Virus record (IMG/VR): IMGVR_UViG_3300027963_002263
Location: 1-47,191 of that record
Reading direction: 5' to 3' (one strand)
Origin: a virus
DNA: 47,191 nucleotides
Part shown: positions 7,934 through 46,564 of the stretch, in pieces
Numbering within the stretch: position 1 is the first letter of the stretch
Layout: each line of letters begins with the position of its first letter
The notes under the pieces: model-generated
Told to the model about the DNA's origin: nothing
Database searches by the model: none
What the model saw: the letters and a program-made list of their open reading frames with translations, nothing else
Made by a program: the position numbers and the translations under genes

Positions 7934-8164
7934 ATGCAAATTACTACTCATCACAGTCAGATCCGTACAATCAAACAAGACGATTCACGATTTCGTATCG
8001 TTGACAAATTTACAACCTGTGGTAGAGCAGGGTTTGAAATTTCAAAACAATGCCCACGTGAGTACGGATTGATATTATCCGAATGTATTGATCGTGGTTG
8101 GATCCAACCTGTGGCCTATATGACAGAACGTGAACTTCTTATTTCGGGATTATCTAATGGTTAA
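7934..8164 (+). CDS. Small hypothetical protein (76 aa)
   Basis: It starts at ATG 7934, directly at the expected start point of the sigma70 promoter and without a Shine-Dalgarno. The product is a soluble mixed alpha/beta protein with two cysteines (FTTCGRAGFEISKQCPREYG) and a C-terminal helix. It overlaps uvsE by 8 bases, implying coupled translation with the repair enzyme. The family is not recognised. Confidence 0.65.
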   Translation: MQITTHHSQIRTIKQDDSRFRIVDKFTTCGRAGFEISKQCPREYGLILSECIDRGWIQPVAYMTERELLISGLSNG

Positions 8165-9182
8165 ACGTATCGGCTTTGCTTGTAAATGGATCGACGGCCC
8201 CAGCCAAATTAACGGGGTTAAACAAAAAGATGACTGTAAACAGTATAATACTGGCAGTACTACCGTTGCCTGGTTAAATAGACAAACGAAAGAAGTTGCA
8301 GAACAAAAGCTCTGGGACCTAATGGTAGGTAACATTGAAAGTGTTCGTAAACTTGTTGAAAAGGTAGGGACACTCGATGAAAATCTTAGAATGGTACGAC
8401 TTGGTAGCGATATCCTTCCTGTCTACACTCAGTCAGTTTGGGGCAGGTATTGGCGGGATCCCGTGGTACGGGCATATTGTGAAAGAGAGTTTAAACGAGT
8501 CGGAGATGTGGCTCGTGAGAATAATGTTCGCCTCAGTTTCCATCCTGGTCAGTTTACTGTTCTGGCATCTGAGTCAGACGATATTGTAAATCGTTCAATA
8601 GAGGAATTTGAATATCATGCGGACATGGCTAGATGGATGGGATTTGGTAGAACGTTTCAAGACTTTAAAATCAACGTTCATATCGCAGGTAGACGAGGCC
8701 CCGATGGAATACGTGCTGTTTTACCTCGCCTGAGTCCCGAGGCACGTAACTGTATTACAATCGAAAACGAAGAAAATGCCTGGGGATTGGATGACTGCCT
8801 CTCTATATCAGATATTGTTCCTATTGTGCTCGACATACATCATCATTGGGTACGTGAGGGAGAGTACATTACACCTAGAGATGACCGTGTCAAACGAGTT
8901 TTAGACAGTTGGCGCGGTGTTCGCCCTACTATGCATTACAGTGTATCTCGCGAAGACATCCTAGTTAATCATCCAGAAACTGTATTTCCTGATATGCCTC
9001 AATTGTTACTTGACGGCTACAAAAAACAAAAACTCAGAGCACACTCAAACTTCTACTGGAATACAGCAGTGAATGAATGGGCTTTGAGTTTTCGAAACAA
9101 CTTTGATATTATGTGCGAAAGCAAGGCTAAAAACTTAGCCAGCTTCGCACTATATCAACAGGCATTAAGCCTTGGGCTTTGA
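8157..9182 (+). CDS. uvsE: UV damage endonuclease (UVDE)
   Basis: A 341-aa TIM-barrel metalloenzyme that nicks DNA 5' of cyclobutane dimers, 6-4 photoproducts and other lesions. The family signatures appear in order: SFHPGQF (127-133), NVHIAG (173-178), ENE (203-205), DIHHH (226-230), MHYS (259-262) and AHSNFYW (295-301), which supply the His/Glu/Asp cluster for the three metal ions. Length is typical of bacterial UVDE and the C-terminal barrel end is present. ATG 8157 gives the conserved N terminus (VKRIGFACKW) and overlaps the upstream small gene. A light-exposed aquatic habitat would explain the gene. Its 3' end overlaps a convergent gene by 18 bases. Confidence 0.95.
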   Translation: MVKRIGFACKWIDGPSQINGVKQKDDCKQYNTGSTTVAWLNRQTKEVAEQKLWDLMVGNIESVRKLVEKVGTLDENLRMVRLGSDILPVYTQSVWGRYWRDPVVRAYCEREFKRVGDVARENNVRLSFHPGQFTVLASESDDIVNRSIEEFEYHADMARWMGFGRTFQDFKINVHIAGRRGPDGIRAVLPRLSPEARNCITIENEENAWGLDDCLSISDIVPIVLDIHHHWVREGEYITPRDDRVKRVLDSWRGVRPTMHYSVSREDILVNHPETVFPDMPQLLLDGYKKQKLRAHSNFYWNTAVNEWALSFRNNFDIMCESKAKNLASFALYQQALSLGL

Positions 9183-9401
9183 TTTCTTAGCTGGGGCAGG
9201 TTGTTTTTTAGGAGCAGCTTTTTTTGGTGCTGTCTTTTTTGCAGGGGCTTTTGGAGCAATGCTTTTAACAACTGCTTCAGAGGCTGCTTGCGCCGTTGGA
9301 GTAGGTGCTGCTTCTACTACCGGTGCTTCTACCTTGTACGGCACCTCTGCTACAACTTCCGCTGGCTTAGAGCCAAATAGTTTTTTAATAAATCCGATCA
9401 T
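9165..9401 (-). CDS. Lys/Ala/Pro-rich protein with amphipathic N terminus (78 aa)
   Basis: The - strand reads a strong ribosome site (AAGGAGA) 8 bases before its ATG, which supports a real gene despite the biased composition. Residues 1-11 (MIGFIKKLFGS) form a hydrophobic/basic helix that could sit on a membrane. The rest is low complexity: an Ala/Val/Pro/Glu segment, then AKK/PKK repeats (about 50-78) like the tail of histone H1 or other DNA-compacting proteins. It overlaps the end of uvsE tail to tail. DNA binding or membrane tethering is inference from composition. Confidence 0.75.
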   Translation of the reverse strand: MIGFIKKLFGSKPAEVVAEVPYKVEAPVVEAAPTPTAQAASEAVVKSIAPKAPAKKTAPKKAAPKKQPAPAKKSKPKA

Positions 9402-9423: not shown

Positions 9424-9431
9424 TATTTACA
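9424..9431 (-). promoter_or_regulatory. Possible late promoter element on the - strand (TGTAAATA)
   Basis: Read on the - strand this is TGTAAATA, sharing the TAAATA core, 22 bases before the ATG of the Lys/Ala-rich gene. It touches the + strand element at 9431-9438, so the 42-base gap between these divergent genes holds two back-to-back TAAATA cores. Match to consensus is partial. Confidence 0.4.
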
Positions 9432-9438
9432 CTAAATA
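9431..9438 (+). promoter_or_regulatory. Late promoter-like element ACTAAATA
   Basis: The TAAATA core lies 5 bases before the superoxide dismutase ATG. With T4 spacing the start point would be 9444, the A of the ATG itself, giving a leaderless message; no Shine-Dalgarno is visible. Confidence 0.45.
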
Positions 9439-9443
9439 TTGCC

Positions 9444-10004
9444 ATGACACTACATTTTATTAAATCTTTGACTGAATCTGCAGATAAACGTGAAATTAAG
9501 CAGGATAAACTTACGTTTGGAAAAGACGAGCTAGATCCGGTAATGAGTGAAGCAACTGTAAAGTATCATTTTGACGGACTTGCTTCTAAATATTTTGAAC
9601 GTTACAATACAGGCGAAGGTGACGCTGATTTTAATTATGGCGGCGCAATGTTACATAATATATTCTTTGCCAATTTAATCCCGCCGCAAGCAGCCAACAG
9701 ACCCGAGGGGCTCAGTAAATCTGTAATAGATTCTGCTCACGGATCCTTTGACAAATTTAAAGAAGCATTTGAAAAAGAGTTTATGGCAGCACAGGGTTCA
9801 AATTGGATCTATATGGATTATGACGGTAAACTGCACACAATCCATAATCATGAATACCGTAAAGGTATGAAAATTGCCCTATTGGTAGATGCTTGGGAAC
9901 ATGCTTGGTCTCTCGATTACCAACAGGACAAAGCCAAATACTTAAACAATATTTGGCGCATCATCAACTGGCGAACAGTTGACATTAGACTACAAGGAGC
10001 GTAA
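9444..10004 (+). CDS. Fe/Mn superoxide dismutase with N-terminal LxE leader
   Basis: A 186-aa SodB/SodA-family enzyme that converts superoxide to O2 and H2O2. All four metal ligands are in place: His42, His71, Asp149 and His153 (the last two in DAWEH), plus the active-site Tyr50 and the C-terminal NIWRIINWRTV strand. The usual HHxxHH after the first ligand has become YHFDGLA, and the second-sphere site that is Gln in FeSOD is Gly here; with TIHNHE where MnSOD has its Gln, metal choice is unclear. Compared with cellular enzymes, about 25 extra residues precede the fold; they begin MTLHFIKSLTES, ending in LTE like T4 prohead-protease sites. The next small membrane gene follows at 3 bases. Confidence 0.9.
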   Translation: MTLHFIKSLTESADKREIKQDKLTFGKDELDPVMSEATVKYHFDGLASKYFERYNTGEGDADFNYGGAMLHNIFFANLIPPQAANRPEGLSKSVIDSAHGSFDKFKEAFEKEFMAAQGSNWIYMDYDGKLHTIHNHEYRKGMKIALLVDAWEHAWSLDYQQDKAKYLNNIWRIINWRTVDIRLQGA

Positions 10005-10125: not shown

Positions 10126-10515
10126 ATGGCATATTCAGATAAAGTAATCGATCATTACGAGAACCCTCGCAATGTCGGTAGTTTTGATAAGTCTGATACT
10201 AATGTAGGCACGGGCATGGTGGGAGCACCTGCCTGTGGCGATGTAATGAAACTGCAAATTAAAGTCAACGACGATGGGATAATCGAGGATGCTAAATTCA
10301 AAACTTACGGATGCGGGTCGGCAATTGCGTCTAGCTCTCTTGTTACAGAATGGCTCAAAGGTAAGACTCTTGACGAAGCAGGAAGCATTAAGAATTCTGC
10401 GATTGCAGAAGAACTCGCCCTACCTCCGGTCAAAATACATTGTAGCATACTGGCAGAAGATGCGATTAAAGCAGCAGTAAAGGATTATAAACAAAAGCAT
10501 GATCTCGTTAACTGA
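10126..10515 (+). CDS. iscU: Fe-S cluster scaffold protein IscU
   Basis: A 129-aa full-length IscU, the scaffold on which [2Fe-2S] clusters are built from IscS sulfur. The three cluster cysteines are Cys37 (GAPACGD), Cys63 (YGCGSA) and Cys106 (KIHCS), with the companion Asp39 and His105. LPPVK (99-103), the peptide recognised by the HscA chaperone, is intact, so the protein should dock to the host ISC machinery. ATG 10126 gives the family N terminus ([16 protein letters not shown]); a farther in-frame start at 10111 would overlap the upstream gene. It overlaps the A-type carrier gene by 17 bases. Confidence 0.95.
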
Positions 10516-10819
10516 AAAAGCGGCAAACAAAGTTAAAGCTCAGTTAGAAAATCGTGGGACTGGGTTGGGTATCCGTGCTGGTGTTAGAACTACAGGGTGC
10601 AGCGGATTAGCATATACAATAGAATTTGTAGATGCTCCAAACAGTGAAGATCTAAGTTTTGTCAGCTACGGGGTTCATGTATTTGTAGATCCAAAAAGCC
10701 TAGTATATTTAGAAGGTGTAGAAATGGATTGGGTTCGCAACGGACTCAATGAAGGGTTTGATTTTAAAAACCCTAACGAACGCGATCGCTGCGGCTGCGG
10801 CGAATCCTTTAGAGTCTAA
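10499..10819 (+). CDS. iscA: A-type Fe-S carrier (IscA/ErpA family), copy 1
   Basis: A 106-aa HesB-like protein that accepts clusters from IscU and passes them to target enzymes. It has the three invariant cysteines: Cys34 (TTGCSG), Cys98 and Cys100 (CGCGESF), and full family length. It lies directly after and overlapping iscU, so the two are made together. A second, divergent A-type carrier is encoded 35 kb downstream (45454-45777). The 3' end overlaps a convergent gene by 4 bases. Confidence 0.93.
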
Positions 10820-21248: not shown

Positions 21249-23783
21249 ATGTCAGATAAAAAATTATATCAAATAGCAACATATACCGAAGAAGACTGGA
21301 AATATGTTCATGACATTTTAACTGCTGATGGCAGCATTGATGATAATATCCCTGCAGCAAAAATTGAATGTACTGACACTATCGACCATAGTCCTACAAG
21401 AGCTGTATATTTGTTGACTGAGGAAGAAGCACAACAATTAAGTCAATGTCCCAAGGTGCGAGCACTGTCTTTTGATTTTGCCAGCTATCCCGATCAATTC
21501 AAAGTTCCGCCGGAAGAATTATACAGTACACCAAGATACAGCAGTACAGTTAAAAACTATAGAAACTTTGCAGATACTAATACGCTGCCGGGATCTCCAG
21601 GTGTGGCAGATCTTAATCGAGCCGGTTATCAATTATTACGTTCTGCTCAAAAAAATGATCCGTGGTATGGAATCAGTGACACTACAGTTATCAATGATCA
21701 AATTAACTATGTCGGTGATGGAACTGACGTAGATGTAATTGTTGGTGATGACGGATGTTGGTTTGGTCATGTTGAATTTCAAAACAATGCTACAGGCAAA
21801 GGTCCGACAAACTATGTTGGTGGTAATAAATTACCTGGCAATGGCACATGTGATTTGTTAGATTTAGTTTTAGAAGGCCCATACTATATTGACCCTGCAT
21901 GGTTTAATGCAGATGCTGCCAATCGATTGACCACAAGATGGGATGGTACAATTGTCCCAGTAGAATCAGTAGCAAGAGCATGGTGGGGCAATGCTGCACA
22001 GAGATCATCAGCATTTGCAGGCATCGGTACAGTTACCATTACTTCTGCATACACAAGAGCATACAACAACGGTGATAATATAAATATCTCTTCTGTTGGA
22101 CAACATGGCACCTGTTGTGCTTCGATAACCTATGGTCGCACACAAGGTTGGGCGTTTAATGCCAACAAATGGTTTATACAGGTTTACAATACCAACGGTA
22201 GTGATATCCAACAATATTTTGATATCATGAAGATATTCCATCGTAACAAGCCTATTAATCCCACATACGGTACTAGAAATCCCACAATCAGCAGCAACAG
22301 CTGGGGATATCGAGCAGTACCTCCAAGTTCTGGATATTATTATTTTAGAGGTAATACCGCTGGGGTTTCTTATACTTCAGGAACCAAACCCGAGTTTATG
22401 AAATATGTAGGACTGTACGGCGACGGTGGACGTATGAAAGGACAGATGCTCGACAATGCCTACACCATTGCTGGCGAAGAAATGATCAATGCCGGAGTTA
22501 TCTTTGTCTGTGCTGCTGGCAACAGCAACCAAAAACAAGTAGGGCCTGCACATCCAGATTTTAATAATTTTTATAATAGCGGTCCCAATCAAACAGTCAC
22601 TACCAATGCTTGGTATGAATTTGGCATTCAAGTATATCCGTATACTAACAGACGAGGGTTTCCTCAACATCTAGGTAAGACTGCCGGTTATGTGTATCCA
22701 ACGATTAACATCGGAGCACTCGACGACAGCTATCAACCAAGCGGCAAGGAGCGTAAAGTAAACTACAGCGACATGGGTCCTGAGATAGATTGTTTTGCAC
22801 CAGCGGACGGAACATTAGGTGCGAACCATAGTTATAGTATTGCAGGCTATAGGGCTGATACCTATGCATTAGCTTCTGCAGGTTTTAGCGGGATATATTC
22901 AGCATCTGCGGCATTAACCAGCACTGGAACATTTGTTGTTGCTGCCAATAATGGAAATAGATTAACTACAAGTAGCGGAACTGTAACCGTTACCAGCATT
23001 TCAAATACATTAGTTGGTGGTAGCGGACTAAGCAATATTTCTGTTACTCCTACAACAGGAGATAATGACGACGGATATTGGACTGTAACATTACCATTTA
23101 ATATCACGTTTAATGGCACTACATACACCACCATTGGCATTGGAACTAATTCATATATCACATTTGGTGCTGGTTCATCTGCGTATACTGCCCTTACTCC
23201 TGCTAATCCGCCTTTGCCAAAAATTATGATATCGTCTGCAGATATTTCATGTCAGCGGATCTATCATGGTGTCCAAGCTGGAATATCGCCAAATAGAACT
23301 TATCGGATTCGATGGGAAGGAACTAATGCTACCACCGGAACCTTAGGTTCCCCTAACATGGTCTGGGAAGCTGTATTTTACGAAGCAACTCCTGCACAAA
23401 TTGATATTCAAATTGGTGCAAATGCCAACGGAACCCGAACATTTACTGATGCAAAATTTAGTGGAACCAGTGCAGCCTGTCCCGCAGCCACTGGACTTAT
23501 TGCCACTGTATTACAATACAACAGATCGTGGACTTGGTCCGATGTTCGCAACTGGTTACAGAACAGTGTTGAAGTTCAAGACTCTGCCAAGTTCTATGTT
23601 GGAACAGAATCTACCACTGCTAATGCAGCAACATGGAGTGATGTAAACGGATTAGAAGGTGCTTCACCGAGAGTTTTATACAATGCGTTTTCAATACCAA
23701 TCAGCAATCCAGTTACTAAATCTGTACAAATGCGCGGCAATTTTAGATTAAAGGGCAATATCAGCATTAAGTTTAAAAACTAA
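21249..23783 (+). CDS. Subtilisin-like serine protease (S8) of the virion, with inserted domain
   Basis: An 844-aa protein with a complete S8 catalytic set in order: Asp167 (VIVGDDG), His286 (GQHGTCCAS), oxyanion Asn425 (CAAGNSN) and Ser741 (FSGTSAACP). Residues 1-110 could be a propeptide or virion-anchoring part; no signal peptide is seen. Between the DCFAPAD segment (514-520) and the catalytic Ser, where subtilases normally need 20-30 residues, about 210 residues are inserted; they are Thr/Gly/Asn-rich beta strands with LPFNITFNGTTYTTIGIG, a bacterial beta-sandwich pattern. It lies between two fibre genes and is likely a structural or maturation protease, or acts on host surface proteins. 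The Asp is followed by Asp-Gly rather than Ser/Thr-Gly. Confidence 0.88.
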   Translation: MSDKKLYQIATYTEEDWKYVHDILTADGSIDDNIPAAKIECTDTIDHSPTRAVYLLTEEEAQQLSQCPKVRALSFDFASYPDQFKVPPEELYSTPRYSSTVKNYRNFADTNTLPGSPGVADLNRAGYQLLRSAQKNDPWYGISDTTVINDQINYVGDGTDVDVIVGDDGCWFGHVEFQNNATGKGPTNYVGGNKLPGNGTCDLLDLVLEGPYYIDPAWFNADAANRLTTRWDGTIVPVESVARAWWGNAAQRSSAFAGIGTVTITSAYTRAYNNGDNINISSVGQHGTCCASITYGRTQGWAFNANKWFIQVYNTNGSDIQQYFDIMKIFHRNKPINPTYGTRNPTISSNSWGYRAVPPSSGYYYFRGNTAGVSYTSGTKPEFMKYVGLYGDGGRMKGQMLDNAYTIAGEEMINAGVIFVCAAGNSNQKQVGPAHPDFNNFYNSGPNQTVTTNAWYEFGIQVYPYTNRRGFPQHLGKTAGYVYPTINIGALDDSYQPSGKERKVNYSDMGPEIDCFAPADGTLGANHSYSIAGYRADTYALASAGFSGIYSASAALTSTGTFVVAANNGNRLTTSSGTVTVTSISNTLVGGSGLSNISVTPTTGDNDDGYWTVTLPFNITFNGTTYTTIGIGTNSYITFGAGSSAYTALTPANPPLPKIMISSADISCQRIYHGVQAGISPNRTYRIRWEGTNATTGTLGSPNMVWEAVFYEATPAQIDIQIGANANGTRTFTDAKFSGTSAACPAATGLIATVLQYNRSWTWSDVRNWLQNSVEVQDSAKFYVGTESTTANAATWSDVNGLEGASPRVLYNAFSIPISNPVTKSVQMRGNFRLKGNISIKFKN

Positions 23784-24403: not shown

Positions 24404-27400
24404 ATGATAACCTGGAACACACCCCAAGGTAACCTAGGAACAAAAAAAGAGCGTGAGACGACGACTATTCCATTGTCAGCAACTTCTGACGTCGGCGACA
24501 TTACCTATTCAGTAATTGCAGGATCCTTGCCGAGGGGATTGAGATTAATCGGAAATCTTATTAAAGGAAGTCCTTCCGAAGTTAAATCATACACTACTAG
24601 CCGATTCGTTATACGAGCACAAGACAGCAACGACTTAGAAGATAGAACTTTTAGTCTATCAGTCGATGGCGCTGATGCTCCGGAATGGATTACCAAAGAA
24701 GGATATCTGCAGGTTGGCAGCGGTGAAGCTTACTTTGTTCTTGATAATAGCCGGGTAAATTTCCAATTAGAAGCATACGACACCGATGTTATTATTGGCG
24801 ACAAACTAGAATATTATCTTGTACCAATGGGTGGTCAGCTTCCTCCGGGATTAAGTCTTTCTAGAACTGGGGTCATTTCTGGATTTACTGATCCTATATT
24901 TGCTGTTGATTATAACGCTTCTTTAAACGGTGGGTATGACACTGGTGCATTTGACGTAACTCCTATTGATTTTGTTGAAGCAAAGTCTAATGGTTTTGAT
25001 GATTATTTTTATGATAACGTAACTTACGATTATAGTGAGCCTAGTCGCAGTCCTAAAAGGTTAAGCAGAAGTTATTCCTTTGTCATTGCCGTAACAGACG
25101 GCGCAAACGTTATAAGACAAAGTTTTAAAATTTACGTTGTTACAGAAGAATTTTTAAAAGCAGATAACAGTATTGTCCAGATTAGTACAAATGTGTTTAC
25201 TGCCGATGCTTCATCAGATCGAGTACCGTTATGGATAACCGACAGCAATCTTGGTCGCTACAGATCTAATAATTATGTAACATTAATTTTAGATGTGTAT
25301 GATCCTCCTAGCTTGCCAGGAACAATAACGTATTTTGTGTTACCAACAAACAACGATGGATCTCCAAGCGTTACGCCTCCGGGTTTAGAATTAGATAGTG
25401 TTACTGGAGAACTAGCAGGAACAGTACCTTATCAATCTAAGATTAGCAAAACATATTCGTTTACCGTAGAAGCAGTTAATTTTCCTTCTACATTATACAA
25501 TTCTGGATACACACTTGTTGGGAACTGGAATACCTCTATTAATTATTTGCCAGACCAAGCTGTTAGGTATCTCAATTACATATACATCTGCACAAAAGAA
25601 AATAGATCAGTTATTCCGACCAATATTACCTATTGGACTAAAGGCGTGTCTAGTGCGGCAAAAACATTTAATGTTGAGATTGTTGGCGAGATTGAAAGTG
25701 CAGTTTCATGGGTAACTGGCAACGACTTAGGAACTATTAGACCAAATCAAGCAAGCCAGCTATTTGTTCAAGCTGAAACTTTATTATACGGTGGTAGAGC
25801 CAACTATAAAAAAATATCCGGCGACCTTCCTGTTGGAATAGAATTATTATCTGATGGAAAAATTCAAGGTAAGATAAAACAATTTGCCGACGCAGTCGGC
25901 CCCGGGCTAACTAGATTATTCGACGGCGCTGGCGCTCCACCTCCACCCCCAAATGCCGATGGTAGAGCTCATAACCCATTGCGACCTTTGGTTAATTCTG
26001 TTGCACAACCATTTGGAAGATATGGAACCGCAAGATATCTAGACGGCATTTATACTATGGTACCTGGAGTGAATCCTAGAACTATCAGTAACATTGTTGT
26101 AGCAGGACACGGAGAAGATCCAGACCCAACAGGATTTAGCGGATGGTTGTATGCTTGGGGGCAATTTTTAACACACGATTTAGAATTTGCTCGAGAAGGT
26201 ACAATTAACATAGATGTTATTGTTCCTGCAGGTGATACCGAACTTACTCCGGGTAGTCACATTCCTGTTAGAAGAAATGCAGTAGCATTAGGTACCGGGC
26301 CCGGAACAACTGTACCTGCAACGCCAATCAACGAAACAACCGGTTGGTTAGATGCTAGTGTAGTTTATGGTATAGCATATCCGCCCGGTGTACCACAAGG
26401 ACCTACAGCGTTTGCCAATCCTGTAGATCTAAGAGAAGGCGGACAACAGGCAACAACAGGAAAGTTATTAACAAGTTTAAATGGACTATATCCTCCGAAA
26501 AACATCAGTGGAAGATATTTTGTAGGCGATCCTCGAGGCAATGAAAATCCAGACTTATTATCCTGCCACGTGTTAATGATCAGAGATCATAATTGGCACG
26601 TAGATAGAATTTCTGCAGTACATCCAGATGTAGATGGAGAACGATTATATCAACGAGCTAAGTCTCTAGTAATTGCAGAAATGCAAAAAATAACCTACGA
26701 CGAATGGCTACCTAAGATTGTTGGTCCTATTCCAGCGTGGACTTCTTTCAATCCTAATATAGATGCTACAACAAAAATAGAGTTTTCTGCAGCAGCTCTG
26801 CGGTTTGGTCATAGCATAGTATCTAATGCACTTGATCGTATAGACGAAACTGGGAATGTTACAGAAGAATTAGCGTTAGCCGATGCGTTTTTCTTAACCC
26901 CTGCTGAGTTTGAAAGAAACGGTGGGGCAGATGGATTTATGAGAAAGCTGGCAGCAGATGTTTCAAATAAATTAGATGTGCATATTGTTGATGATTTAAG
27001 AAACTTACTAGATGATCCTCCTGCTGCATTAGACCTAGCTGCAACAAACATCCAACGTGGCCGTGATTTAGGTCTTGGTACCTTAAACCAAACAAGAATA
27101 GCCCTTGGGTTAGTACCTTACGAACAGTGGAATCAAATAACATCCGATCCTGCACTTCAAGCTGCATTATCAACTGCTTACGGTGATATTCAGAATGTGG
27201 ATCTATGGATTGGCGGATTGGCTGAAGATAGAGTTACTGGAGCAATGGTTGGGCAAACGTTCCGCACAATTCTCGTCGATCAATTTACAAGACTACGAGA
27301 TGGTGATCAATACTGGTGGGAGAATAGACCGTGGGCTCCTGAAGACCGCGCCTTGCTAGATAATACTACATTGGCAGGACTGATTTTAAGAAATACCAAT

Positions 27401-28615
27401 ACGGTTAGAATGCAGCCTGATGCATTTGTTGCTGTTGAAAGAACAGATTTATATAACGGTGCTTCATTATTAGCCTCACCGATCATAGTACCAGATCCTC
27501 CACTACCGTCGTTTAATATTACATTCGACGGTAGCACAACTACCTTTGATAGAAAATTTACATTTGTAGTAGAAGCCAGTGATGCTTCTGGGTTTTCAAA
27601 GATACAAAGAGAATTTTATTTCACAGTCACTACAGACTCCGATAAAACATTTTCTAACCTATATCTTAAAGCATTTCAATCAAAAGAAAAAAGGTTAGCA
27701 TGGAGTAACTTTATTACCGATGCAAACATTTTCAAACCATCAGATTTGTATAGACCAGGTGATGTAAATTTTGGAGTTCAAACAGAACTTAAAATGTTGT
27801 TATTTGCTGGCATAGAAAGTGCTGCTGCTGAAAAATATATATCAGCCATGGGGCACAATCATTACCGCAAACAAATTTTGTTTGGGGATATTAAAACTGC
27901 AAAAGCGAGAGATCCAGATACACAAGAAACGATTTACGAAGTTGTTTATGTTGACATTAAGGACGACCTAGAAAAAGAATACTATGTTCCTATCGTTCTT
28001 GATCCTGCATTATATATTCTAGGCGCACGACTAGTGGGTCGTCAGAGTATATCTGAAGTAGTTGATTTACCGAATAATATCAACAGTCCGGTATTGGTCA
28101 GCACTTCGGAAATTAAAATAGATAGCGATGTGCCTCTTGTTAGCGATCGAGATCATCAACGAATCTTTCCAAACAGTATCTATAACATGAGAAATAGATT
28201 ATCAGAAATAGGCGAAAGAGATCGTACATACTTGCCGTTATGGATGCGTAGTATTCAAGACGACGCATCATACGAAACTGGGTACGTTAAAGGGTTAATA
28301 CTGTGTTACACTCTTCCAGGCAAATCTCAAGATATTGTTGCCAGGATACAGGCAAAAACCAATTATGCATCAAGAGGCGAGTGGTCTAACACAATCGCCT
28401 ATCAAATTAACGATTCTGTAATATATGCAGGAAATTACTGGACGTGTATTAAAGAAAATCTTAATACCGTACCATCTGCCGGGATTTACTGGATTGAAAA
28501 TTTCAATTTTAGCAATATTAATTTTACAGCAGATCGCTATCTAATTGATATATTAGACGGGGAAATAGAGGATAAATACCTTGCATTTCCGCAACGTGGA
28601 GAAAAACTACCGTGA
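24404..28615 (+). CDS. Tail protein with Ig-like repeats and an inserted animal-type haem peroxidase domain (1403 aa)
   Basis: Residues 1-494 and 1034-1403 are a phage tail protein: at least four putative-Ig units with LPxGLxLxxxGxIxG (SLPRGLRLIG, QLPPGLSLSRTG, PPGLELDSVTG, LPVGIELLSDG) and two CBM5/12-like Trp/Tyr units (about 374-410 and 1326-1365). Residues about 495-1033 are a full animal haem peroxidase (peroxidasin/MPO family). It has WGQFLTHD (distal Gln587, His591, calcium Asp592), TGWLDAS (calcium loop Thr646, Asp650, Ser652), GDPRGNE (catalytic Arg711, Glu714), DGERLYQRAK, RFGHS (proximal His803) and TNIQRGRD (Asn882). MPO Asp94, which esterifies haem, is Thr590. The frame is open across both junctions. 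Expected activity is oxidation of halides or phenols with H2O2, at the virion surface. It overlaps the next gene by 4 bases. Confidence 0.92.
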   Translation: MITWNTPQGNLGTKKERETTTIPLSATSDVGDITYSVIAGSLPRGLRLIGNLIKGSPSEVKSYTTSRFVIRAQDSNDLEDRTFSLSVDGADAPEWITKEGYLQVGSGEAYFVLDNSRVNFQLEAYDTDVIIGDKLEYYLVPMGGQLPPGLSLSRTGVISGFTDPIFAVDYNASLNGGYDTGAFDVTPIDFVEAKSNGFDDYFYDNVTYDYSEPSRSPKRLSRSYSFVIAVTDGANVIRQSFKIYVVTEEFLKADNSIVQISTNVFTADASSDRVPLWITDSNLGRYRSNNYVTLILDVYDPPSLPGTITYFVLPTNNDGSPSVTPPGLELDSVTGELAGTVPYQSKISKTYSFTVEAVNFPSTLYNSGYTLVGNWNTSINYLPDQAVRYLNYIYICTKENRSVIPTNITYWTKGVSSAAKTFNVEIVGEIESAVSWVTGNDLGTIRPNQASQLFVQAETLLYGGRANYKKISGDLPVGIELLSDGKIQGKIKQFADAVGPGLTRLFDGAGAPPPPPNADGRAHNPLRPLVNSVAQPFGRYGTARYLDGIYTMVPGVNPRTISNIVVAGHGEDPDPTGFSGWLYAWGQFLTHDLEFAREGTINIDVIVPAGDTELTPGSHIPVRRNAVALGTGPGTTVPATPINETTGWLDASVVYGIAYPPGVPQGPTAFANPVDLREGGQQATTGKLLTSLNGLYPPKNISGRYFVGDPRGNENPDLLSCHVLMIRDHNWHVDRISAVHPDVDGERLYQRAKSLVIAEMQKITYDEWLPKIVGPIPAWTSFNPNIDATTKIEFSAAALRFGHSIVSNALDRIDETGNVTEELALADAFFLTPAEFERNGGADGFMRKLAADVSNKLDVHIVDDLRNLLDDPPAALDLAATNIQRGRDLGLGTLNQTRIALGLVPYEQWNQITSDPALQAALSTAYGDIQNVDLWIGGLAEDRVTGAMVGQTFRTILVDQFTRLRDGDQYWWENRPWAPEDRALLDNTTLAGLILRNTNTVRMQPDAFVAVERTDLYNGASLLASPIIVPDPPLPSFNITFDGSTTTFDRKFTFVVEASDASGFSKIQREFYFTVTTDSDKTFSNLYLKAFQSKEKRLAWSNFITDANIFKPSDLYRPGDVNFGVQTELKMLLFAGIESAAAEKYISAMGHNHYRKQILFGDIKTAKARDPDTQETIYEVVYVDIKDDLEKEYYVPIVLDPALYILGARLVGRQSISEVVDLPNNINSPVLVSTSEIKIDSDVPLVSDRDHQRIFPNSIYNMRNRLSEIGERDRTYLPLWMRSIQDDASYETGYVKGLILCYTLPGKSQDIVARIQAKTNYASRGEWSNTIAYQINDSVIYAGNYWTCIKENLNTVPSAGIYWIENFNFSNINFTADRYLIDILDGEIEDKYLAFPQRGEKLP
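28571..28578 (+). promoter_or_regulatory. Late promoter-like element GATAAATA
   Basis: GATAAATA inside the last codons of the tail gene, 33 bases before the GTG start of the next structural gene. It is the same octamer as at 4709, 34264, 42625 and 43015. Confidence 0.45.
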
Positions 28616-43461: not shown

Positions 43462-43799
43462 TGTTATTAAGAGAAATGTTTTCAGCTATTGGTGCTCCAA
43501 AGGATGATCAACAAGACGTTGATTGGTTGGACGATCTTAAATTCTTTATTGACAATGACGACGACATGCTCAATAAGTACTTCTTTCCTGCTGTAAAAAA
43601 ACATAAAGAATACAAAGGCCACCCAGATGCCTATAAACTTTATGTAAAATCTATTGAGCGTTGTAAAGATCATTATTGTCAAAAATACGAAATTGATAAG
43701 CCAGAAGAAAAATTTACAAAAGAAAAAATTATTGATCTAGCAAAACATTTTGCTAGTGAGCAAGAAAAACATATTCAAAACGGCGACTATGATTCTTAA
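43461..43799 (+). CDS. Conserved phage hypothetical protein (112 aa)
   Basis: TAATG junction with the preceding gene. It begins MLLREMFSAIG, loosely like the short leaders of nearby proteins but without a clear LxE at position 8-11, then an acidic helical protein (WLDDLKFFIDNDDDMLNKYF; YVKSIERCKDHYCQKYEI). The two cysteines are seven residues apart. It overlaps the next gene by 11 bases. Function unknown. Confidence 0.7.
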   Translation: MLLREMFSAIGAPKDDQQDVDWLDDLKFFIDNDDDMLNKYFFPAVKKHKEYKGHPDAYKLYVKSIERCKDHYCQKYEIDKPEEKFTKEKIIDLAKHFASEQEKHIQNGDYDS

Positions 43800-45006
43800 T
43801 GAACTATTTGAAAGCAGCTCAAAGCACATAGCATTCTGTTTTGGCAGAATGAATCCTCCCACCATTGGACACGGGCAAGTATTATCTACTATATCCAGAG
43901 TTGGTGGTGATTATAAAATATTTCTAAGCCAAACCCAAGACAAAAAGAAAAATCCTCTAGACTATTCAACTAAAATCAAGTTTTTAAAATTAATGTTCCC
44001 TAAGTATGCAGGAGCAGTTGTTGAAGATACCAATTTAAATACTATCGGCAAGGTATGTAGTTATCTTTATGATCAAGGTTACAGACATGTAACTCTAGTA
44101 GCAGGAAGTGATAGATTAGAATCCATGTTGACCCTAATCAAAGACTATAATGGCGTCGAAGGAAAGGCTCACGGTTTTTATAAATTCGAAACAATGAACG
44201 GTAAGAGTAGTGGAGATAGAGATCCAGACGGCGAGGGAGTCTCCGGGGTTAGTGCTAGTAATGCTAGAGCTGCTGCCGCAAACGGAAATCTAGAAGATTT
44301 TGTTTCTGCCACGGGCGCAGGCACACATGCCAAAGCGTTGTTTAATGCTGTCCGGCAAGGTATGGGAATTAAAGACGAAATAGAAGAGGGTTGGAAGGAA
44401 AAATTAGCCGGAGCTGCATTGGCAGGGTCAATGGCTTTAGGGATGGGCGGAAATGCCCAGGCTCATAATCTTGATAATTTTAGCACAGCATATCTACAAA
44501 AAGTAGCCGCAGGTGAAGGCGGTAGGGCAATGGTTAGCATTGACGATGCAAAGGCAGAACTACAGAATAGAGCAAAACAACAGACTTCTCAACAATCTGC
44601 TCCTACCAAAACAGGATTTAGTAAAACTTATCTACAGAGTGTAGTTGACGGATCTCATCCCCGTCCATTAATCAGTAAAGAAAAAGCTCAGGAGTTATTA
44701 AATCAACTGAATAAAGATGTAACTGAGTCTCCAATTGAAATGGATCCTAGCGATCCAATGGATCCCATGATTTATAGCCACGCCAAAGCTAATCCTGCTA
44801 AATTAAAATATCGTATGCTACGTGCTTCGGGTCAATTAAAAGATCTAGCTGCTCGTGCAGAAAATGCAAGTCCACAAGAGTGGGAAATAATGGCTCGACA
44901 ATTCGAAGAATTAAAAATGAACATGGAACAAATTCGCCATGCTCTTGAAGAACTAGGTAAAGTAAAACGCAAAGGCGGCATTAGGTCTAGGGGTATCACA
45001 GTATGA
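43789..45006 (+). CDS. Nucleotidylyltransferase (NMNAT/cytidylyltransferase fold) fused to a hydrophobic and repeat region
   Basis: A 405-aa protein. After a short leader MILNELFE, residues 12-190 are an HxGH-type nucleotidyltransferase: FGRMNPPTIGH (18-28) and VSASNAR (154-160, in the place of the ISSTxxR box). These enzymes join a nucleotide to a phosphorylated metabolite, for example NMN. Residues 204-226 form a hydrophobic, signal-like segment (LAGAALAGSMALGMGGNAQA). Two related units of about 35 residues follow (229-265 and 276-311; FSxxYLQxVxxGxxxRxxIS), then a helical end. ATG 43789 gives the family start; it overlaps the upstream gene by 11 bases. Substrate is unknown; NMN is only the nearest family example. 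Confidence 0.82.
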   Translation: MILNELFESSSKHIAFCFGRMNPPTIGHGQVLSTISRVGGDYKIFLSQTQDKKKNPLDYSTKIKFLKLMFPKYAGAVVEDTNLNTIGKVCSYLYDQGYRHVTLVAGSDRLESMLTLIKDYNGVEGKAHGFYKFETMNGKSSGDRDPDGEGVSGVSASNARAAAANGNLEDFVSATGAGTHAKALFNAVRQGMGIKDEIEEGWKEKLAGAALAGSMALGMGGNAQAHNLDNFSTAYLQKVAAGEGGRAMVSIDDAKAELQNRAKQQTSQQSAPTKTGFSKTYLQSVVDGSHPRPLISKEKAQELLNQLNKDVTESPIEMDPSDPMDPMIYSHAKANPAKLKYRMLRASGQLKDLAARAENASPQEWEIMARQFEELKMNMEQIRHALEELGKVKRKGGIRSRGITV

Positions 45007-45461
45007 AAATCCTAGAGTTGTTTGAATTAAAAAAAACAGAACCTGCCAAACCTAGAAATTTTGTTGCTAAAAATGCCAAGATGGGCGGTGCTGGCGCACA
45101 TAAAGACAAAAAGAAAGCTGCCAAGCAAGGCGATGTTAAACATAAAAACAAAATAGATGAATTTAAACTTGCCAATGTAATTAATTTAAATCCATTTGTT
45201 CACATACCAAGCGCAACTGAGGCTAAGTTAATGGCCGCAATAATGGGTATGATTCCGGCAACTAGAAAATTTGCACCAATATTATCTACAATAGCAACAA
45301 AACATCCAGACAAACTTGCAGATCCGTCTTGGTTACAAAAAGTTACTGGATTAGATAGTGCTTTAAATAAAGCATTAGCCTGGGCGGAAGAAAACCCGGA
45401 TCATCCAGCAGTTATAAAATTAAAAAACACAATAGAAAAGAAGACCACACAAGATGATTGA
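45003..45461 (+). CDS. Basic phage protein with LxE leader (152 aa)
   Basis: ATGA overlap with the previous gene. It begins [11 protein letters not shown], a leader of the LxE type, then a very basic, Gly/Lys segment ([20 protein letters not shown], about 19-38) that I recognise from several aquatic T4-like phage proteins. The C-terminal two thirds are helical with [20 protein letters not shown]. The basic stretch suggests contact with DNA inside the head. It overlaps the Fe-S carrier gene by 8 bases. Confidence 0.75.
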
Positions 45462-45777
45462 AATTACCCCATCAGCAAAAATAAAAATACAAGATTTACT
45501 TTCTGAAGAAGGTAATCCCAAACTGGCATTGCGCACCTTTGTACAAGGTGGCGGATGCAGCGGATTCAGTTATGGCTTCACCTTTGACGATGTTCAAAAC
45601 GATGATGATTTTGAAATTGACTGCGGTGCTTGGAAGATTTTAGTTGATGCTATGAGTATGCAGTATCTAAACGGTGCAGAAATAGATTACAAAGAAGAAG
45701 TTATGGGCAGTCAGTTTGTAATTAAAAATCCCAATGCCCAAACAACATGTGGCTGCGGAAGCAGTTTTTCTGTATGA
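45454..45777 (+). CDS. A-type Fe-S carrier (ErpA-like), copy 2
   Basis: A 107-aa HesB-like protein with Cys35 (GGGCSG), Cys99 and Cys101 (CGCGSS), the full A-type set. It is distinct from the copy at 10499 in most variable positions, with [12 protein letters not shown] and an ErpA-like [16 protein letters not shown]. It lies between a basic LxE-leader protein and a small Cys-containing protein, so it is expressed with late genes rather than with iscU. It may serve a different client set. Confidence 0.93.
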
Positions 45778-45956
45778 TAGAGAAGAAGTATTACTATTCA
45801 CAAGAAGAATGGAGTCGATTAGGTTGCGGCCCGTTGCCTAGTGAGCGTGATATTACCAAATTAAATCCTCAGGATATCAACTGGGGTACATATCTAGTAT
45901 ATCCAGAACGTCAAGGAGAAGAGGATCGTCCCAACAATCCTTATAGCCAAGTATGA
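45774..45956 (+). CDS. Small hypothetical protein (60 aa)
   Basis: ATGA overlap with the Fe-S carrier. The product is Tyr/Pro rich ([39 protein letters not shown]), with one cysteine and no membrane segment. It ends in a 4-base overlap with the next gene. The family is not recognised. Confidence 0.6.
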
Positions 45957-46564
45957 GAATAACAGAAATTTTAACAGAAGCCAAGGCAGTCAAGCAAAGA
46001 CTTGATCCTAAGTGCTGGAAAGGCAAGCACAAGGAAGGTACTAAAATCAAAGGCGGGGTTCGTGTAAACAACTGTGTGCCTAACGAAGGTATTGAAGAAG
46101 CAGGTTCGCCGGCTCAACAGGCTGCTATTGCTATCAACATGAAGAAGCATCACAAGAAGCCTAAGAATGAAGATGTCTACACTGAAGAAGAATTGCATTT
46201 ATTGTTCGACAGCCTAGAAGAAATGTTTAGTGAAATGGGCATCCATGAAGATAATTACGATGCATTCACAGACGACGATATACTATCAGAAGCCGCAGCA
46301 TGGCAAAAGAAGTCTGGAAAAAATAAAAACGGTGGGTTGAATAAGAAAGGTGTTGCCAGCTATCGTAGAGAGCACCCCGGCAGTAAACTACAAACAGCAG
46401 TTACTACTAAGCCTAGTAAGTTGAAGAAAGGCAGCAAAGCTAGTAAAAGACGCAAATCATTCTGCGCTAGAATGAAAGGTATGAAAAAATCTCGTACAGG
46501 TGCAAAGACCAAGAGAGATCCTAACTCACGTATCAATAAATCATTGAGAAAGTGGAACTGCTAA
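45953..46564 (+). CDS. DUF6321-like basic phage protein with LxE leader (203 aa)
   Basis: It begins [13 protein letters not shown], very like T4 internal-protein leaders (MKTYQEFIxEA). KCWKGKHKEGTKIKGGVRVN (20-39) and the C-terminal block with NGGLNKKGVASYRREHPGS, FCARMKGMKKS and DPNSRINKSLRKWNC (about 125-203) match the phage DUF6321-type module. The protein is strongly basic in the last 70 residues and acidic in the middle (DVYTEEELHLLFDSLEE). Encapsidated DNA-binding is plausible but unproven. Confidence 0.85.
   Translation: MRITEILTEAKAVKQRLDPKCWKGKHKEGTKIKGGVRVNNCVPNEGIEEAGSPAQQAAIAINMKKHHKKPKNEDVYTEEELHLLFDSLEEMFSEMGIHEDNYDAFTDDDILSEAAAWQKKSGKNKNGGLNKKGVASYRREHPGSKLQTAVTTKPSKLKKGSKASKRRKSFCARMKGMKKSRTGAKTKRDPNSRINKSLRKWNC

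Follow-up and report, generated by a model that had tools for sequence, protein, structure and literature searches.

Why does a phage carry an Fe/Mn superoxide dismutase (SOD), and could the short N-terminal leader that precedes its fold send the enzyme into the capsid? The question is raised by an open reading frame in a viral DNA fragment of 47,191 nucleotides (the window, i.e., the whole stretch of DNA that we analyzed), a 47-kb fragment without head genes. An earlier note on this DNA described a complete dismutase with an altered active site and a leader ending in LTE, and proposed that the enzyme could be packaged and injected. SOD genes in phages are not new, and annotations already exist. 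In the literature searched, we found no paper that links a phage SOD to capsid targeting, and what is new here is the inferred packaging, which would make the SOD a catalytic antioxidant carried as internal head cargo of the T4 type. The features of the locus are collected in Table 1.

Table 1. Features of the dismutase locus, in positions of the window.
Feature	Position	Strand	Details	Basis
Fe/Mn superoxide dismutase gene	9444..10004	+	ATG start, 186 aa	Pfam, AlphaFold2, Foldseek
Predicted capsid-targeting propeptide, residues 1-11	9444..9476	+	MTLHFIKSLTE; predicted cut after Glu11	T4 gp21 [LI]xE rule, conservation, pLDDT <50
Predicted mature enzyme	9477..10001	+	175 aa, N-terminus SADKREIKQDKL; SOD fold from ~residue 20-22	
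TAAATA, T4/cyanophage late-promoter core	9433..9438	+	5 nt before SOD ATG	Sequence
Divergent TAAATA	9424..9429	-	Faces gene 9165-9401; with 9433..9438 forms TATTTA-CAC-TAAATA	
Metal ligand H42	9567..9569	+		Alignment
Metal ligand H71	9654..9656	+	Gly67, four residues earlier, at the FeSOD Gln69 position	
H136, C-terminal water-coordinating position	9849..9851	+	Gln in MnSOD; invariant in phage SODs	
D149-A-W-E-H153, metal ligands D149 and H153	9888..9902	+	Leu at D-2	Alignment
UvdE-type UV-damage endonuclease	8157..9182	+	Conserved upstream neighbor without leader	
IscU/NifU_N Fe-S scaffold	10126..10515	+	Conserved downstream neighbor without leader	
A-type Fe-S carrier (IscA-like)	10499..10819	+	Conserved downstream neighbor without leader	

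Identity and metal site of the dismutase

By domain profile and predicted structure, the gene product is an Fe/Mn-type SOD, for which dismutase activity is predicted. Pfam matched Sod_Fe_C (E=2e-21), with Sod_Fe_N (7e-5) slightly below the cut-off. The AlphaFold2 model of the window SOD has a mean pLDDT of 89.9, with residues 1-14 below 50 and order beginning at ~residue 20. A Foldseek search against the PDB returned exclusively Fe/Mn SODs as top matches, at TM scores of up to 0.84 (~0.8 to many), and the comparison with solved structures also places ORF 9444-10004 among Fe/Mn SODs. Together with the alignment of the ligands, these results uphold the claim of a complete Fe/Mn SOD in a phage. 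The stretch before the fold is somewhat shorter than first described, ~20-21 residues instead of ~25.

We aligned 18 phage SODs, including those of Pseudomonas phage MIJ3 and Vibrio phage 2.275.O, and found that H42, H71, D149, and H153 are invariant, as is Y50, the gateway residue equivalent to Tyr34. This alignment confirms that all metal ligands are intact. It also bears out the two alterations that had been reported around the metal: the HxxxHH of canonical SODs reads HxxxLA, with both last histidines gone, and Gly67 occupies the Gln position of SodFM2-type FeSODs. However, the earlier note had overlooked an invariant His136, which fills the C-terminal water-binding site in every phage SOD aligned. 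MnSODs and SodFM3/4 use this C-terminal position for the water-coordinating residue (PMC10172142). Because His136 holds it, the active site is not short of a second-sphere residue, and a "missing" one can be ruled out, as its role is taken by His136. The view that the metal site is atypical was therefore overstated, since the combination of a C-terminal His with Gly at the Fe-type position is already known from SodFM3/4.

Sendra et al. 2023 (PMC10172142) report a preference for Fe in 9 of 13 enzymes with a C-terminal His, an association of Gly or Ala at D-2 with Mn, and Leu at D-2 in the cambialistic SodM of S. aureus. From His136 and the Leu at D-2, our best guess is thus that the phage SOD would be Fe-preferring or cambialistic. 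SodFM3 and SodFM4 resemble the phage enzyme in using a C-terminal His as the water-coordinating residue, and SodFM4 has likewise lost the last His of HxxxHH, whereas the phage SOD has lost both (LA). The phage SOD differs from both in being viral and in its helical hairpin turn, from which ~20 residues of cellular SODs are absent; because of this shortened hairpin, its membership of SodFM4 is uncertain.

In addition, two linked sequence types were observed in the phage SODs at window residues 112-121 and 148-151, EFMAAQGSNW with DAWEH and TAMSIQGSGW with DWWEH. They adjoin the metal site and cut across otherwise close relatives, and may perhaps arise by recombination or by selection on metal use.

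The N-terminal leader and the prohead protease rule

The window SOD opens with a disordered leader of ~20 residues that starts with MTLHFIKSLTE. The T4 protease gp21 cleaves after L/I-x-E, and ten N-terminal residues of T4 IPIII suffice to direct cargo into heads (PMC9026906). Since [LI]xE is short and N-terminal LxE is common, our argument for packaging is built on conservation of the motif and not on its presence. Indeed, across all genes of one relative we counted 37 N-terminal LxE against 25 expected by chance, a moderate excess that is too weak alone to serve as proof of a tag.

Among 55 distinct close relatives, the leader follows the pattern xLHF[IL][KR][SYF][LIV]xE. Phe5, the P3 residue (L/I/V), and the P1 Glu (Glu11) are each present in all 55, and P2 is free (T, K, Q, N, S, H or F). 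E17 and Q20, which lie between the leader and the fold, are also invariant in these relatives, so that conservation extends beyond the cut site. Across 107 distinct SODs, [LIVM]xE with P1 at residues 8-14 was found in 105, and the strict form [LI]xE in 102; the two exceptions are Vibrio phage 2.275.O, whose SOD has no leader, and L195, which has FxE (FYE). When the sequences were clustered at 80% identity, the [LIVM]xE rule held in 30 of 32 clusters, as compared with 13.4 expected from shuffled leaders, and none of 200,000 simulations reached 30. At 70% identity, it held in 14 of 16 clusters (p about 7e-5).

The rule is kept even where the rest of the leader is not, its letters falling to about 7-12% identity. 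Leaders of SODs that are 45-65% identical share only about 7-9% outside the triplet, near background, and almost all of them still end in [LI]xE, as in (cut site marked by a slash) MKLNDFLIE/A, MKVNDFLTE/A, MRDLLSIIE/S, MKDIKTYINLIE/V, and, in MIJ3, MNDSIKKYISIAE/A. Further leaders of distant relatives with this ending are MKFNQFLNE, MRDLLTIIE, MDLKKYRDFIIE, and MTDIRQTLDLLE. Across relatives, P1' is mainly Ser or Ala.

A leader that is merely an ordinary divergent extension with no function, in which LxE is coincidental, would suit a motif that is short and common at N-termini and a segment that is disordered in the model. Such an extension is at odds with the retention of the triplet in nearly every relative and in more than twice the number of clusters expected, among letters that are otherwise random between lineages. 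This explanation is already strongly disfavored, and we consider it highly improbable. The match of LTE to the T4 prohead protease rule, pointed out in the earlier note, is therefore not due to chance, and the phage homologues with the same leader that were to be sought do exist.

The same phages also tend to encode a suitable protease. Of the eight SOD records that reach at least 199 kb, seven encode Peptidase_S77 (the gp21 family): the SOD contigs G001, G015, G016, G017, and G019, which span 199-340 kb, together with MIJ3 and Vibrio 2.275.O; the search gave no match in SOD contig G020 (217 kb) or in several SOD fragments below 199 kb. In G001 (269,730 bp), a Gp23-type capsid gene adjoins the protease gene. 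The same contig encodes a PHROG "virion structural / head" protein that is headed by MKTLKDYLAE/S and has the promoter layout seen for the SOD; for comparison, MKTYQEFIAE is the N-terminus of T4 IPII and IPIII, as read from the T4 record. Among the points that count against packaging, Vibrio phage 2.275.O has the protease together with a SOD that has no leader, and SOD is not among the proteins reported for the MIJ3 virion, which is weak counter-evidence, as only four proteins were identified there, from major gel bands, by LC-MS/MS.

More LxE-type leaders were observed in the window, in the proteins at 43789-45006, 45003-45461, and 45953-46564, as well as in G001, at 83017-83703, 224187-224528, 232221-232784, and 262210-262554. 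The proteins that bear them include nucleotidyltransferase-like enzymes and a PHROG head protein, and are possible further capsid cargo.

Expression, gene neighborhood, and viral origin

The late promoter reads TATAAATA in T4 and NATAAATA in cyanophages (PMC2984593). In the 70 nt before gene starts, TAAATA was counted 60 times in G001 (5.4 expected) and 11 times in the window (1.2 expected), with head and tail genes among those that it precedes. The core before the SOD gene sits as it does before head and tail genes, and in roughly half of the 32 representatives of the clusters TAAATA likewise lies 5 nt ahead of the SOD ATG. The longer CTAAATA was rejected as a window-wide motif, as it displays no total over-representation and the enrichment lies in the position before gene starts. 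We also observed two spacing classes of TAAATA before genes (window, G001 L086-L099), of about 4-6 nt and about 16-27 nt; the 4-6 nt spacing, which is common to many genes, would leave transcripts with hardly any 5' untranslated sequence.

In most of 177 loci, the usual gene order is glycosyltransferase, UvdE, SOD, IscU, and A-type carrier, followed by a zinc-ribbon-like small ORF on the opposite strand and a large tail fiber, and in some related phages the SOD gene lies directly 3' of an ErpA-type gene. The UvdE-SOD-IscU-IscA block looks like a unit for protection from UV and oxidative damage and for Fe-S repair. SOD alone in this block bears the leader: UvdE, IscU, and IscA begin at canonical positions, and the leader pattern is found in 0 to 7% of cases. 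A second A-type Fe-S carrier, which is ErpA-like, was observed at 45454-45777 of the window, 35 kb from the first.

The main rival to packaging is a SOD that is made late and remains cytosolic, outside the virion, where it would shield both the assembly of Fe-S clusters (through IscU and A-type carriers) and those virion or replication proteins that bear such clusters, with the leader serving as an uncut localization helix or a scaffold contact. The tight conserved gene order, the direct ErpA-type neighbor in some phages, and the late-type promoter all fit such an enzyme. However, it leaves unexplained the invariant P1 Glu and the P3 L/I next to a free P2, and it fails to explain why the rule survives leader turnover and why the functional partners have no leaders. 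A cytosolic enzyme thus accounts for the gene block and not for the leader rule, and we judge it unlikely; the two roles are compatible, and a cytosolic function and packaging could both hold.

With regard to distribution, eleven records of the MIJ3/PA5oct group, as well as Vibrio phage 2.275.O, were found by tblastn to encode SODs of this lineage, and scans of IMG/VR yielded 107 relatives with a single query and at least 588 viral contigs with an alignment query. The carriers include large uncultured phages from water as well as cultured Pseudomonas and Vibrio jumbo phages. The earlier note had asked about cells with the same N-terminal extension. Among 84,980 bacterial and archaeal species genomes, scanned with two short peptide patterns, no cellular dismutase bearing this leader turned up; a scan of this kind could miss distant cellular relatives. 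The lone bacterial-genome match, L101 (JAPLPS010000046.1), is a 3.9-kb contig of a Polaromonas MAG, in which bases 1 to about 480 encode a phage-like SOD plus the 5' end of a phage-like erpA and are followed by a GC-rich Polaromonas erpA and chromosome. L101 is apparently a phage-bacterium assembly chimera joined at the conserved erpA gene.

Several "phage" records with cellular-type SODs and no annotation have the look of host contamination, which could suggest that the SOD gene studied here is likewise a cellular gene in mis-binned or host DNA. For this lineage, that explanation is already refuted and its probability is negligible: the SOD gene lies beside tail-fiber genes in >130 phage loci and is present in the cultured Pseudomonas and Vibrio jumbo phages, SOD contigs bear gp21 and gp23 homologues, and the sole bacterial contig with this SOD is the chimera at erpA. 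The chimeric nature of L101 and the phage gene context rule out a cellular origin or contamination.

The window also encodes a complete animal-type heme peroxidase domain (Pfam An_peroxidase, E 3e-104), at 25952-27427 in gene 24404-28615 (+). The domain is a clean insert of ~530 aa in a protein of 1403 aa that is of virion type and has Ig-like repeats; the G001 homologue of this protein has no such insert. In five other viral contigs, the insert is 90-98% identical, as compared with about 55-72% for the whole protein, which suggests that it spread recently; a search of 50,697 phage records gave no match to the insert. We found no support for a functional link between SOD and peroxidase, as the insert is absent in G001 and four peroxidase contigs (two of 61-65 kb and two of 22-34 kb) gave no SOD match. 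In addition, an 844-aa protein with a subtilase-type (S8) protease domain is encoded at 21249-23783 (+), within the fiber/structural gene block.

Proposed packaging and comparison with known systems

We consider it probable, on the strength of sequence comparisons, that an active SOD is made late, packaged via its leader, cut by the S77 protease, and injected with the genome. The reading of the leader as a packaging signal, first put forward in the earlier note, is supported by the conserved P3 and P1 residues with a free P2, by a rule that outlives leader turnover, and by neighbors that have no leader, and further by the co-occurrence of S77, the late-promoter position, and the lack of a cellular homologue with the leader among the genomes scanned. 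Packaging, cleavage, ejection, catalysis, and benefit are all steps that we infer. In the proposed sequence of events, a T4-related large myovirus would express the Fe/Mn-type SOD late in infection, and the propeptide would bring it into the prohead by co-assembly with the core. At head maturation, the S77 (gp21-type) protease would cleave after Glu11, and the compact SOD would stay in the capsid alongside the DNA. Like T4 IPI-III and Alt, it would then enter the next host along with the genome, and it could clear superoxide ahead of phage gene expression. The superoxide met at entry may be produced by the host in response or result from the entry process itself, and the protection proposed earlier, against an oxidative burst as infection begins, is just one of several conceivable uses.

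More tentatively, we postulate that jumbo phages of a widespread lineage, both aquatic ones and those of Pseudomonas, may pre-load and inject SOD, such that superoxide would be removed before any phage gene expression, as an enzymatic first-minute counter-defense or protection delivered via a T4-type capsid tag. If this is true, the cost of superoxide at entry would be high enough to justify the capsid space that the enzyme takes up.

The internal proteins of T4 are the textbook case of injected proteins in tailed phages, and, as such cargo is not conserved, few of their counterparts in other phages have been recognized. In the present case, the putative tag is borne, across >100 distinct proteins, by an enzyme whose chemistry is known, so that both the tag rule and the benefit are directly testable, also in cultured Pseudomonas phages. 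The resemblance to T4 IPI, IPII, IPIII, and Alt, which carry a propeptide cut by gp21, lies in a short N-terminal L/I-x-E leader, a protease of the T4 type encoded by the phages concerned, predicted late expression, and plastic cargo with a kept rule, as proposed for the phage SOD. The letters of the SOD leader are unlike those of T4 MKTYQEFIAE, and the T4 cargo is a nuclease inhibitor or an ADP-ribosyltransferase, whereas the putative cargo here is a metalloenzyme of the SOD family.

Closer to the window SOD is SodB of the Pseudomonas jumbo phages MIJ3, PA5oct, Callisto, and Paride (Arenbergviridae), which belongs to the same lineage at 33-35% identity. It has the same active-site changes and the leader given above for MIJ3, and the S77 protease is present; it is known from annotation only, with its leader unremarked in the literature searched. 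Its gene sits among ClpX, ClpS, S21, and FtsH genes and not, as in the window, among Fe-S and UvdE genes.

Outside tailed phages, chlorovirus PBCV-1 expresses a Cu/Zn SOD late and packages it (PMC7019647), and SOD is carried in giant-virus particles (PMC9405923). These enzymes are virus-encoded, late, and in the virion, to which the predicted packaging of the phage SOD is the parallel; they belong to the unrelated Cu/Zn family, serve viruses of algal or amoebal hosts, and have no LxE leader system. If our reading is correct, the phage SOD would thus be a counterpart of the packaged chlorovirus SOD that was reached by an unrelated route.
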